From contig NZ_REBQ01000139.1 in NCBI RefSeq assembly GCF_007692655.1, positions 1-64,000 of the forward strand: DNA of 64,000 nt, read 5' to 3'. The translations under genes were made by a program, and so were the position numbers. Of this stretch, positions 53,950-57,713 are shown piece after piece. The notes under the pieces were generated by a model, which worked only from the letters and a program-made list of their open reading frames with translations, did no database searches and was not told the origin of the DNA. How positions within the stretch are numbered: the first letter of the stretch is position 1; the number at the start of each line of letters is the position of its first letter. Source of the stretch: Halomonas sp. GTDB taxonomy: Bacteria > Pseudomonadota > Gammaproteobacteria > Pseudomonadales > Halomonadaceae.

Positions 53950-53978
53950 TTGACATGCAAACCGCCTAACTTTAGACT
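53950..53978 (+). promoter_or_regulatory. Promoter of the metNIQ leader
   Basis: A perfect -35 TTGACA (53950-53955), a 17-base spacer, and TAGACT (53973-53978, four of six). Transcription should start near 53985, about 185 bases before metN. Confidence 0.65.
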
Positions 53979-53984
53979 TTCGGC

Positions 53985-54106
53985 GCAAATGATATGACGC
54001 CGATTTGTACCCATATTGCGGGCGTCCATCAGGTTTATAATCTGGTGAAGTGCAGCTAAAAGGGTGTGTCCAGCGTTGATGGCCGCCCATTAAGGGTGGC
54101 TTTTTT
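53985..54106 (+). promoter_or_regulatory. metNIQ leader with anti-antiterminator, antiterminator and terminator
   Basis: Four segments can pair in alternative ways. Segment 1 (53994-54001, ATGACGCC) pairs with segment 2 (GGCGTC at 54021-54026, continuing CAT past one bulge). Segment 2 (GGGCGTCCATC, 54020-54030) pairs at 10 of 11 positions with segment 3 (GATGGCCGCCC, 54078-54088). Segment 3 supplies the left arm of the terminator (54082-54106). Stems 1:2 and 3:4 are compatible with each other and exclude 2:3, the logic of an OFF-type attenuator. No known SAM aptamer core is recognised. A 21-codon frame (53994-54059) spans segments 1 and 2 but has no ribosome site and no extra Met codons. Confidence 0.6.
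54082..54106 (+). terminator. Intrinsic terminator within the metNIQ leader
   Basis: GCCGCCC (54082-54088) pairs with GGGTGGC (54094-54100), one G-U pair, loop ATTAA, followed by six T. It stands 63 bases before the metN start and downstream of the promoter, so it can only act on the leader. Confidence 0.82.
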
Positions 54107-54169
54107 ATTCCCGCCCCACACCTGCTCTCTCACCCTCTCCGTCTTCGGCCTACCAGCAAGGCAGACGCT

Positions 54170-55213
54170 ATGATTGAACTTAGCAACGTCAGTAAAACCT
54201 ATGGTAATGGCGCAGCCGCTGTCCATGCCTTAAAAAATGCCAATCTCACCGTCCCCAAAGGCAAGATTCACGGCGTTATTGGGCTTTCCGGCGCCGGCAA
54301 ATCAACGCTAATACGCTGCGTCAATTTATTAGAGCGCCCGACCAGCGGCAGCGTCGTGGTGGATGGTCAAGAAATGACGCGCTTAAGCAGCGCGGCGCTC
54401 AACCGCGCACGCCATCGCATTGGCATGATTTTTCAGCACTTCAACTTACTGACCACCCGCACAGTGTTCGACAACGTTGCCCTTCCCCTGGAACTGATGG
54501 GGCAAAAGCGTCAAGCCATTCGCGAGCGCGTCGGCCCACTGCTAGACATGGTTGGCCTTACGGATAAAGCCAACCAGTATCCCGCTCAATTATCGGGTGG
54601 ACAAAAACAGCGTGTTGCCATTGCTCGCGCCCTGGCCAGTGAGCCACAAGTACTGCTTTGCGATGAAGCGACCTCAGCATTAGACCCACAAACCACCGGC
54701 TCGATATTAGAACTGCTGCGCGATATCAATCGTCAATTAGGCATTACCATTTTGTTAATCACTCACGAGATGGAAGTGGTTAAATCCATCTGCCATCGGG
54801 TCAGCCTGATTTCTGATGGGAAGCTGGTAGAAGATGCTGAAGTGGGCGAATTTTTCACCGCTCCACGTACTCAGCTGGGGCGTGAGTTTCTGAACGACTT
54901 CCTTCAGTTAACGCCACCCAAAGAACTTATTGAACGGCTATCGGATACCGCGGGAGAACATACTCACCCCGTAGTGCGTTTAACCTTTTCCGGCGATGCG
55001 GTCTCAACACCGCTTATTTCGCGCCTGGCTCGTGAGTGTGGTGTTGATGTCAGCATTCTGCAAGCCAAGGTAGAGTCCATTCAAGATCGTACATTGGGCC
55101 TAATGATCGCTGAACTGCTGGGTACACCGGCACAAACCCAGCAAGCCATGACCTATCTTGAATCCCATCAACTACAGGTAGAGGTACTCGGCCATGTCCA
55201 GCGCAATGTTTAA
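54170..55213 (+). CDS. metN: MetN, methionine ABC transporter ATPase
   Basis: A 347-residue cytoplasmic ATPase of the D/L-methionine importer. Walker A GLSGAGKS (about 39-46), signature LSGGQKQR and Walker B VLLCDEATSALD are present, then a C-terminal ACT-like NIL domain (about 265-345), which in E. coli MetN binds methionine and inhibits transport. It overlaps metI by 20 bases. Transcription probably passes the leader attenuator. Confidence 0.95.
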   Translation: MIELSNVSKTYGNGAAAVHALKNANLTVPKGKIHGVIGLSGAGKSTLIRCVNLLERPTSGSVVVDGQEMTRLSSAALNRARHRIGMIFQHFNLLTTRTVFDNVALPLELMGQKRQAIRERVGPLLDMVGLTDKANQYPAQLSGGQKQRVAIARALASEPQVLLCDEATSALDPQTTGSILELLRDINRQLGITILLITHEMEVVKSICHRVSLISDGKLVEDAEVGEFFTAPRTQLGREFLNDFLQLTPPKELIERLSDTAGEHTHPVVRLTFSGDAVSTPLISRLARECGVDVSILQAKVESIQDRTLGLMIAELLGTPAQTQQAMTYLESHQLQVEVLGHVQRNV

Positions 55214-55847
55214 CCTTATTTTACAGGCCACGCTGGATACCCTTTATATGGTGGCGGTTTCTGGGGTGCTTTCCACGTTGGTTGGTCTACCGCTGGGCGT
55301 GATGCTTTATGTTACCCGTCCGCGCCAAATCCTGGCCAAGCCATTGCTTAATCAAGCGCTAAGCATTGTGACCAATATTGGCCGCTCAATTCCCTTTATC
55401 ATTCTGATGGTTGCGATTATTCCATTCACACGCATGCTGGTCGGCACATCGATTGGCATTAACGCCGCCTCGGTGCCGCTGACCATCGCCGCCATCCCTT
55501 TTGTCGCGCGGCTAGTAGAGGGAGCACTGAACGAGCTTTCTCCCGGTTTAGTTGAAGCTGCCCAAGCGATGGGAGCAACCCCCTGGCAAATTATTTGTAA
55601 AGTGCTGATTCCAGAAGCCCGGGGCGGCATTATGACAGGACTGACCATCACGGTGGTGACATTAGTCAGCTACTCTGCCATGGCAGGTGCCGTAGGCGGC
55701 GGTGGTTTGGGTGACTTAGGCATACGCTACGGCTACAACCGCTTCAATCCAACCATTATGCTAATTACGGTGGTGATCTTAGTGGTGATGGTACAAGGCT
55801 TTCAAAGCCTGGGAGACTATTTAGTACGCAAAAGTGACCGCAAATAA
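55194..55847 (+). CDS. metI: MetI, methionine ABC transporter permease
   Basis: A 217-residue inner membrane protein with five helices. The ATPase-coupling EAA loop reads VEAAQAMGATPWQIICKVLIPEA. GRSIPFIILMVAIIPFTR is typical of MetI. It forms a homodimer with two MetN. The 5' end overlaps metN; an ATG at 55206 is an alternative start. Confidence 0.95.
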   Translation: MSSAMFNLILQATLDTLYMVAVSGVLSTLVGLPLGVMLYVTRPRQILAKPLLNQALSIVTNIGRSIPFIILMVAIIPFTRMLVGTSIGINAASVPLTIAAIPFVARLVEGALNELSPGLVEAAQAMGATPWQIICKVLIPEARGGIMTGLTITVVTLVSYSAMAGAVGGGGLGDLGIRYGYNRFNPTIMLITVVILVVMVQGFQSLGDYLVRKSDRK

Positions 55848-55951: not shown

Positions 55952-56743
55952 ATGCAAAAATTGATTATTGGTAGCCTTACGGCCCTGGCCCTAGCAGTCA
56001 ATGTCGCCAATGCTGAAACTCGAAGCATCAAAATGGGCACCGTCGCGGGACCTGAAACGGAAGTCATGGAAGTCGCCGCCCGCATTGCCAAAGAAGAGTT
56101 CGACCTGGACGTGGAAATCATCGAATTTACTGACTACGTCACTCCCAATGCCGCCCTGGCGGATGGCAGTTTGGATGCTAACGCCTACCAGCATGAGCCT
56201 TACTTACAGTCGATGGTAAATGATCGCGGCTACGATTTAGCGATTGCGGGCTATACCTTCGTTTACCCGATTGGCGCCTACTCAGAAAAGTATGACAGCA
56301 TTGATGACCTGCCGGACGGTGCCCAAATTGCGCTGCCCAATGACCCTTCCAATGAAGGGCGTGCGCTGATTTTGATGCATAACAAAGGCCTGATCACGCT
56401 CAATGATCCGGAATTCCTCGAAGCAACACCGATTGATATCGCTGAAAACCCGCGCAACTTCCGCTTCCGCGAAATTGAAGCAGCCCAGCTTCCCCGTGTG
56501 CTACCTGATGTCGACATGGCCTTCATCAACAATACTTTTGCACAGCCAGCAGGCTTGCATTTGGAAGACGCTTTGATCAAAGAGGGCCCTGAGTCTCCTT
56601 ACGTGAATCTGATCGCCGTGCGTGGCGGTGACGAAGATCGCGAAGAGATCCGCCAACTGGTTGATGCTTACCAACGCGATGAAGTCATCGCAAAAGCTGA
56701 AGAGCTATTCAAAGGCGCAGCGGTACCCGGTTGGATCGAGTAA
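55952..56743 (+). CDS. metQ: MetQ, methionine-binding protein
   Basis: A 263-residue substrate-binding protein. The signal peptide (about 1-21, ending ANA before ETRS) lacks a lipobox cysteine, so unlike E. coli MetQ it should be a soluble periplasmic protein. IKMGTVAGPETEVMEVAA and DANAYQHEPYLQSMV are family blocks. The start at ATG 55952 (GGAGAG upstream) is preferred to a frame opening at 55916. It lies 104 bases after metI, and a strong hairpin (56770-56820) follows. Confidence 0.93.
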   Translation: MQKLIIGSLTALALAVNVANAETRSIKMGTVAGPETEVMEVAARIAKEEFDLDVEIIEFTDYVTPNAALADGSLDANAYQHEPYLQSMVNDRGYDLAIAGYTFVYPIGAYSEKYDSIDDLPDGAQIALPNDPSNEGRALILMHNKGLITLNDPEFLEATPIDIAENPRNFRFREIEAAQLPRVLPDVDMAFINNTFAQPAGLHLEDALIKEGPESPYVNLIAVRGGDEDREEIRQLVDAYQRDEVIAKAEELFKGAAVPGWIE

Positions 56744-57432: not shown

Positions 57433-57509
57433 TGGTAGGACCAGGCGGATTTGAACCGCCGACCTCCACGATGTCAACGTGGCGCTCTAACCAACTGAGC
57501 TATGGTCCT
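57433..57509 (-). tRNA. tRNA-Val (GAC), copy 3 in transcription order
   Basis: 77 bases on the minus strand with an encoded CCA. The acceptor arms are AGGACCA and TGGTCCT with discriminator A; the anticodon loop TTGACAT gives anticodon GAC (codon GUC); GTTCAAATC forms the T loop. It is identical to the two other copies and is the last of the tandem array. Confidence 0.95.
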
Positions 57510-57534
57510 AAATGGGCGTATGTATCGGCGGCGA

Positions 57535-57611
57535 TGGTAGGACCAGGCGGATTTGAACCGCCGACCTCCACGATGTCAACGTGGCGCTCTAACCAACTGA
57601 GCTATGGTCCT
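57535..57611 (-). tRNA. tRNA-Val (GAC), copy 2
   Basis: Same 77-base sequence as the neighbouring copies, with anticodon GAC and encoded CCA. It is the middle copy of the array, separated by 25-base spacers on both sides. Confidence 0.95.
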
Positions 57612-57636
57612 AAATGGGCGTATGTATCGGCGGCGA

Positions 57637-57713
57637 TGGTAGGACCAGGCGGATTTGAACCGCCGACCTCCACGATGTCAACGTGGCGCTCTAACCAACT
57701 GAGCTATGGTCCT
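57637..57713 (-). tRNA. tRNA-Val (GAC), copy 1 in transcription order
   Basis: Same 77-base sequence, first to be transcribed. The A/T-rich region upstream (57714-57780) contains a plausible -10 (TACAAT on the minus strand near 57726) but no convincing -35, and a TTACGCAA/TTGCGTAA inverted repeat at 57753-57777. Confidence 0.95.

Follow-up and report, generated by a model that had tools for sequence, protein, structure and literature searches.

The window analysed here, a 64,000-nucleotide stretch of Halomonas sp. DNA, carries the genes metN, metI and metQ of a methionine ABC transporter, preceded by a leader with a promoter, a structured RNA and an intrinsic terminator (Table 1). TIGR02314 is the best NCBIfam family for MetN, at a score below its cut-off of 499.7 bits; the metQ start was inferred, and the family scan was run on 55955-56743. 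The promoter of the initial annotation is present as a promoter-like site, and 91 of 93 unique metN-type leaders have a TTGAC-N18-21-TAnnnT match upstream of P1, at a distance of at most 70 nt. Promoters and terminators are about as numerous in the region as in shuffled sequence (1 versus 0.9 and 2 versus 1.0, respectively).

Table 1. Features of the metN leader and of the genes behind it (positions in the window)
Feature	Position	Strand	Basis or detail
Sigma70-like promoter TTGACA-17-TAGACT	53950..53978	+	motif match
SAM-II-type aptamer with P3 and start of expression platform	53996..54074	+	covariance-model match extent, signature match
P1 5' strand GACGCC	53996..54001	+	pairs with 54021-54026
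L1 GAUUU, putative third strand of SAM-binding triplex	54002..54006	+	invariant in 37/37 leaders; RF00521 consensus letters
P2a 5' strand ACCC	54009..54012	+	pseudoknot with GGGU 54062-54065
P2b 5' strand UUGC	54016..54019	+	invariant in 37/37 leaders; same in RF00521 consensus
P1 3' strand GGCGTC	54021..54026	+	
P3, 9-bp hairpin with a 3-nt loop, inserted where L3 begins	54027..54047	+	covariation
Remaining L3 AAGTGCA	54048..54054	+	each position invariant or at least 90% among leaders
GCUAAAA, P2b 3' strand and putative SAM-contacting strand	54055..54061	+	conservation, RF00521 consensus
P2a 3' strand GGGU, also in antiterminator 5' arm	54062..54065	+	
Proposed antiterminator hairpin	54062..54088	+	54062-54066 with 54084-54088; 54070-54072 with 54080-54082
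Intrinsic terminator, 8 bp and U tract	54081..54106	+	stem 54081-54101, T run 54101-54106
Small hairpin containing AAGG ahead of metN start	54140..54167	+	
metN, methionine ABC transporter ATPase	54170..55213	+	TIGR02314, 483.9 bits
metI, permease	55194..55847	+	NF008049, 258.8 bits, above cut-off
metQ, substrate-binding lipoprotein	55952..56743	+	TIGR00363, 273.4 bits, above cut-off

The leader is conserved throughout the genus. A DNA search with a 230-base leader stretch found it in 36 of 36 other same-genus genomes (71-85% identity over 121-256 bases), and the same search of order-level genomes gave matches at chance level only. All 37 leaders, counting that of the window, are followed by a metN start, as located with tblastn. 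Letters invariant across the 37 include CGCCGATTT, CCC, TTGCGGGCGTC, GCTAA and GGG, the last two within the block GCAGCTAAAAGGG, which the initial annotation had picked out as conserved-looking and which does belong to the putative binding core. In terms of folding energy the leader does not stand out (z -1.48, with 17 of 200 shuffled versions folding equally well or better). Of the 37 same-genus leaders, 30 are predicted to form the AAGG hairpin, with GUCU:AGAC replaced by GUUU:AAAC in two; the energy of the hairpin is not significant, 88 of 500 shuffles being as stable.

The window was scanned with the Rfam models, a check that the initial annotation had proposed for the SAM riboswitches. 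No SAM-riboswitch model matched, either at the gathering thresholds or at E ≤ 10, and the output held just tRNAs and three chance-level hits. The T-box, SAM-I and SAM_V models gave no match in the window, in agreement with the earlier remark that no SAM-I core could be recognised. Seven further same-genus leaders, scanned at E ≤ 10, returned six chance-level hits and no SAM riboswitch. Weak scattered RF00521 matches (E ≤ 1) in 33 of 38 relatives were discarded, since none was above the cut-off and none lay at the metN leader; such matches also appeared in 10 of 14 control genomes. A hit in the window's own genome, at C103 (L041), was inspected by eye. Elsewhere in the window, three equal-score tRNA genes with 102 nt spacing were found on the minus strand at 57436-57713, and a 103-aa plus-strand ORF over them was rejected as a repeat artefact.

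The letters of the leader point to SAM-II. For reference, 150 genomes of the phylum were searched with RF00521; 24 had a match at E ≤ 1e-4, and 22 of these exceed the cut-off. The RF00521 consensus and the inspected loci have, in order, P1, GATTTG, a short L1 that ends with TTGC, the second strand of P1, L3 and GCTAAA, and these are also the letters of the metN leader. In the window, 6/6 P1 pairs close an L1 that begins GAUUU, and the UUGC/GCUAA core (P2b) is found in all 37 leaders and in the RF00521 consensus. A letter signature composed of GATTTG, 6-11 nt, TTGC, P1 complementarity and GCTAAA has one match in the 64 kb, at 54002 in the metN leader, and none in 200 Markov-resampled windows. 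It matched 18 of 30 RF00521 loci, and in each of the 18 the main match has an 11-nt spacer between P1 and GCTAAA. The spacer in the window is 28 nt, the added length being P3, which starts one base past P1. By analogy with SAM-II and SAM-V, UUGC would pair with the GC and AA of 54055-54059. Judged by these letters, the fold is not new but that of a SAM-II (RF00521) aptamer with P3 inserted in L3, and the RNA is very probably an S-adenosylmethionine (SAM) sensor of the known SAM-II type. The description of the switch as undescribed, given in the initial annotation, has to be dropped, the core being that of SAM-II.

Relatives within the family would close the gap between this leader and SAM-II: in other genera the same platform occurs with a compact L3 and RF00521 scores above the cut-off of 36. 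Three metN leaders of the family exceed this gathering value (L162, 47.8 bits; L168, 38.9 bits; L161, 36.9 bits). Both L161 and L162 precede metN and share the GGGTGTGTCCAGCGTTGA platform and the terminator of the window, with a 12-nt L3 that has no P3. Because the window copy fails the Rfam score and P3 is absent from SAM-II, the leader is filed as a SAM-II variant and not as SAM-II proper.

Two covariance models connect the leader to RF00521 from the other side. R1 was built from 24 leaders of the Halomonas genus only, and R2 was trained on 93 R1 matches, consisting of 26 family loci, compact ones included, and 67 named records. The window aptamer, a training member of both models, scores 104.1 bits with R1 and 78.6 bits with R2. 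Of the 30 loci found by RF00521, R1 recovers 9 in the correct position (8 with E ≤ 0.0025) and misses 21, with one off-place match in L072 (E 0.004); it also matches betaproteobacterial leaders, the best E being 2.8e-10 in 613 kb. R2, whose training set holds none of the 30 loci, recovers 25 (24 at E ≤ 0.0055) and misses 5. This second recovery is not wholly independent, because L161, L162 and L168, also found by RF00521, are in the R2 training set; the 9/30 of R1 is the cleaner test.

Covariation was examined for P1, P2a and P3, and for the structure as a whole. Among 24 leaders, 8 of the 9 P3 pairs are changed on both sides, and the whole structure has 34 both-side-change cells, compared with a shuffled mean of 10.9. 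Both-side changes were found in 9/9 P3 pairs among 92 distinct wider matches, a result that leans towards the R1 structure because the alignment (A3) and R2 were fitted to it. P1 and P2a hardly vary in the genus, and the three counted P2a pairs show no variation there, so that the covariation of both helices derives from wider groups. P1 varies in a compensating manner across all fetched aptamers, with the types GACGCC/GGCGTC, GGCGCC/GGCGCC, CGCGCC/GGCGCG, AGCGCC/GGCGCT and CGTGGT/GCCACG among relatives. The initial annotation had drawn this stem from 53994-54001 with 54021-54029 and had suggested a covariation check on collected leaders; the stem stands and compensates, but its core is limited to the 6 bp listed in Table 1.

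For P2a, unique aptamers obtained with the letter signature (261 of 298, also used for the platform counts) were compared with permuted pairings of L1 and 3' strand. A second type of aptamer occurs among them, in which L1 ends in AGC before TTGC and the 3' strand is GCTAAAGC; it does not have the usual P2a register (e.g. L332, L334, L210), and its pseudoknot may be a 2-bp GC/GC pairing. Many genomes of the class nonetheless carry this type ahead of MetZ-like ORFs. Without this type, 62 of 81 distinct L1/3' combinations have at least 3 bp (permutation mean 40.8, maximum 50, 2000 permutations), and 41 of 81 have 4 bp (mean 18.5, maximum 29). With all 132 combinations included, 73 have at least 3 bp; 1000 permutations averaged 50 and never exceeded 63. 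In the GCTAAAGC type itself, 10 of 49 combinations reach at least 3 bp versus a mean of 8.5, and the register is unsupported.

In comparison with SAM-II (RF00521), the leader has the same P1, GAUUU, UUGC/GCUAA core and P2a pseudoknot, and, going by the part of PMC1273637 that describes the class, the same arrangement of a promoter just upstream of P1, a downstream terminator and a methionine gene. It differs in the extra P3 and the longer spacer, in the missing Rfam match of the window copy, in its gammaproteobacterial host and in preceding an importer. According to the portion of Huang and Lilley (PMC6061858) at hand, P3 is present in SAM-V and absent in SAM-II, and in SAM-V the P3 stem-loop comes right after the 3' end of P1, followed by As and the P2 3' strand, as in the metN leader. 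By analogy with the same account, AAGTGCA would occupy the position of the A-containing strand of SAM-II and SAM-V. The SAM-V described there has a P3 of 3 bp in the crystal structure and a P2a of 2 bp, and is called translational, whereas the metN leader has a 9-bp P3, at least 4 bp in P2a and a terminator behind it. Occlusion of a ribosome site beside the aptamer, as in SAM-V, was not encountered, since the terminator follows and metN starts 105 nt past the GGGU. The collection called SAM-II long loops (RF01726), which in the available part of Weinberg et al. 2010 (PMC2864571) expands SAM-II in Bacteroidetes and marine samples, is different as well: its model, run on 5 genomes at E ≤ 10, did not pick up the metN leader in any of them.

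An aptamer of SAM-II shape could in principle have changed its ligand, for example to SAH or another sulfur metabolite. Relative to the RF00521 consensus, the 3' strand lacks one base (GCUAAAA-GGG versus GCUAAAgA-GG), and P3 is an addition, both of which would fit such a change. However, GAUUU, UUGC and GCUAA, the letters expected around SAM, are invariant in 37/37 leaders, and the downstream genes of the group resemble those of methionine synthesis or import. In Bacillota, as reported in the consulted part of PMC12452182, metN, metI and metQ are preceded by SAM riboswitches. A changed ligand is improbable on this evidence, and SAM is the preferred one.

The expression platform is arranged around the GGGU at the 3' side of the pseudoknot. 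In the proposed mechanism, abundant SAM would bind the P2b/L1 triplex and lock the pseudoknot, with GGGU captured by ACCC; the C-rich arm 54084-54088 would be left free, and 54081-54088 would pair with 54094-54101 to give the terminator. At low SAM the pseudoknot would be loose, and GGGUG-UGU-CCA would pair with UGG-C-CGCCC once both are transcribed, GGGUG with CGCCC and CCA with UGG. This antiterminator would occupy the 5' arm of the terminator, and the polymerase would read on into metNIQ. Pseudoknot and antiterminator exclude each other. The antiterminator (-10.3 kcal/mol) forms part of the predicted minimum-energy structure when the transcript ends at 54088 or 54093, and the terminator (-15.1 kcal/mol) is more stable once its 3' arm exists; read-through therefore requires a kinetic argument, namely that the antiterminator would be preferred as the RNA emerges.

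Platform pairings were counted in 94 unique leaders having GGG[TC]G and C[AG]CCC, 93 of them with enough upstream sequence. At least 8 contiguous terminator pairs are found in 92 of 94. All 5 outer pairs of the antiterminator are possible in 93 of 94, which is weak evidence because the segments are nearly invariant and the leaders were chosen by letters that favour this hairpin. Two loci of the family, L164 and L165, retain the aptamer ahead of metN, and the usual antiterminator and terminator are not visible there by eye, which suggests a change of platform. An OFF switch that acts in cis through a terminator before metNIQ, as the initial annotation had it, is very likely right. SAM-II-like transcriptional OFF switching of the leader is well supported, with SAM as the ligand that we infer, and there is high confidence in the full reading of a SAM-II-type transcriptional switch in which SAM leads to the terminator and scarce SAM to the antiterminator and metNIQ read-through.

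The initial annotation had assigned the antiterminator role to a different pairing, between the P1 3' strand region and the terminator arm, as the state that excludes P1, and had taken a CTGG/CCAG pair inside its loop as part of a binding site. That pairing would be the basis for a new riboswitch class, with the two stems as exclusive states. It exists and is strong here (11/12 pairs, 54020-54031 with 54077-54088, -16.8 kcal/mol), and no Rfam SAM model matches the window. Nevertheless, of 94 unique leaders only that of this genome reaches 11 pairs, and the other 93 have 4-10 of 12, a degree of conservation that speaks against its being a switch arm; the CTGG/CCAG pair would connect two separate elements, the variable P3 and the antiterminator arm. 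With core letters that are those of SAM-II and same-platform relatives that score as RF00521, a new class is highly improbable, and the 54020-54031 pairing may instead add to read-through in this species.

Two other readings of the region leave SAM with little or no role. The first is translation-coupled attenuation through the 21-codon frame 53994-54059 (MTPICTHIAGVHQVYNLVKCS and a stop), offered as an alternative in the initial annotation. The frame is indeed open in the window, and 21 codons are kept in 24 of 93 unique leaders, but an ATG stands at that position in just 40 of 93, the sole Met codon is the start, no ribosome site is seen, and variation in P3 length shifts the frame; the probability of attenuation is next to nil. 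The second holds that the terminator chiefly yields a short, stable trans-acting RNA and that SAM exerts little control over metNIQ. SAM-II leaders of Sinorhizobium meliloti are reported, in the portion of PMC9373788 concerned, to yield the small RNAs RZ, RA1 and RA2. This reading is compatible with the SAM-responsive switch and does not exclude it; as the main function of the leader it is very improbable, given that the leader adjoins metN in all 37 cases and that the antiterminator pairing is kept.

The distribution of related leaders was surveyed with both models. R1 matches 232 of 275 family genomes and 20 of 24 genera, some of the matches being compact; among the 43 family genomes without a match, two are same-genus (G416, 99% complete, and G419, 66%). 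In the order, 23 of 341 genomes matched R1, and the matches outside the family are weak (23-40 bits) and mostly of compact length. Within the class, R2 has matches at E ≤ 1e-4 in 173 of 369 genomes and 126 of 271 genera; the class in the GTDB sense also holds betaproteobacteria. When the downstream ORFs of 27 class loci were compared with a small reference set, 21 were MetZ-like, 3 MetN-like and 1 MetK-like, and 2 had no match. Overall, related matches precede ORFs resembling MetN, MetX, MetZ, MetK and MetA. A pattern scan of named genomes, set to longer L3 spacers, matched at least 118 stretches and says nothing on proportions; among the matches listed, one cluster comprises at least 66 downstream ORFs, MetX by two tested members, many of them from Burkholderia relatives and Comamonadaceae. 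Similar overlooked sensors look common in related bacteria.

Some further arrangements were observed at other loci. In several Halomonadaceae genomes, two compact SAM-II-like aptamers stand in tandem, about 109-137 nt apart: L189/L202 (G283:C20), L190/L201 (G293:C1:1305644 and 1305759), L193/L203 and L194/L204. The first of each pair is of the type AGCTTGC...GCTAAAGCG with its own terminator, and the second begins like CCGCCGATTTAAGCACCAACTTGCGGGCGG. Tandem SAM-II/SAM-V riboswitches are known in Pelagibacter, according to the part of PMC11508383 consulted. At L151 (1848-1956 and 1495-1572, minus strand), a SAM-I/IV riboswitch (RF01725, 54.9 bits) lies upstream of a compact SAM-II-like aptamer, and the tandem precedes an ORF without a Pfam match; in L174 and L199, SAM-II-like aptamers are likewise followed by members of this ORF cluster. 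SAM-II-like leaders with an L3 of P3 length precede ORFs of one cluster in L258, L284 and L300, the first two from Pseudoalteromonas; the L284 ORF belongs to the Na+/H+ antiporter family (PF03553) and is possibly a methionine transporter. Leaders with an L3 of that length also precede ORFs clustering with MetN in L256 (Legionella nautarum) and L223 (a Tatlockia MAG). Sub-threshold matches of RF02424 (Bp2_287, a Burkholderia sRNA) lie on the strand opposite to SAM-II-like aptamers in L188, L189, L196 and L199, and RF02424 may be the reverse strand of a SAM-II-like leader.

SAM-II-like matches with an L3 of P3 length also precede metX in betaproteobacterial species. Leyn et al. (2014, PMC4239095) described a metXZ RNA element in betaproteobacteria, upstream of metX or metZ, for which the available part of the article names no ligand. 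The element likewise has two pairings forming a pseudoknot, a terminator and a metX/metZ context; it differs in that its published description, in the part available, makes no link to SAM-II, and the comparison was made by description and not by letters. Context, pseudoknot layout and taxa agree, and the betaproteobacterial metX leaders are likely the published element. A search of the open-licence literature on SAM-II and SAM riboswitches in connection with Halomonas, metN, gammaproteobacteria and metXZ did not find this leader reported.

These results bear on methionine regulation in gammaproteobacteria, where the initial annotation had expected MetJ as the usual regulator. MetJ was found in 0 of 29 genomes (19 of the genus and 10 of the order's other families), with a positive E. 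coli control; the leader offers a proposed regulator for metNIQ in a genus with no detected MetJ (0/19). Leyn et al. (PMC4239095), in the part available, likewise list no MetJ for Oceanospirillales and place SAM_alpha only in Rhizobiales and Rhodobacterales; that known range, as well as the ligand of the metXZ RNA, now becomes testable. The leader suggests that SAM-II can accept the P3 helix said to distinguish SAM-V. With 3 of 20 scanned class-survey loci reaching the RF00521 cut-off, the data also suggest that the Rfam cut-off misses many SAM-II-type leaders. On balance, it is slightly favoured that the halomonad metN and betaproteobacterial metXZ leaders form one P3-bearing branch uniting the SAM-II/SAM-V superfamily, and that SAM-II-type switches, mostly invisible to Rfam, are the main SAM sensors of metN, metX and metZ in MetJ-less gamma- and betaproteobacteria.
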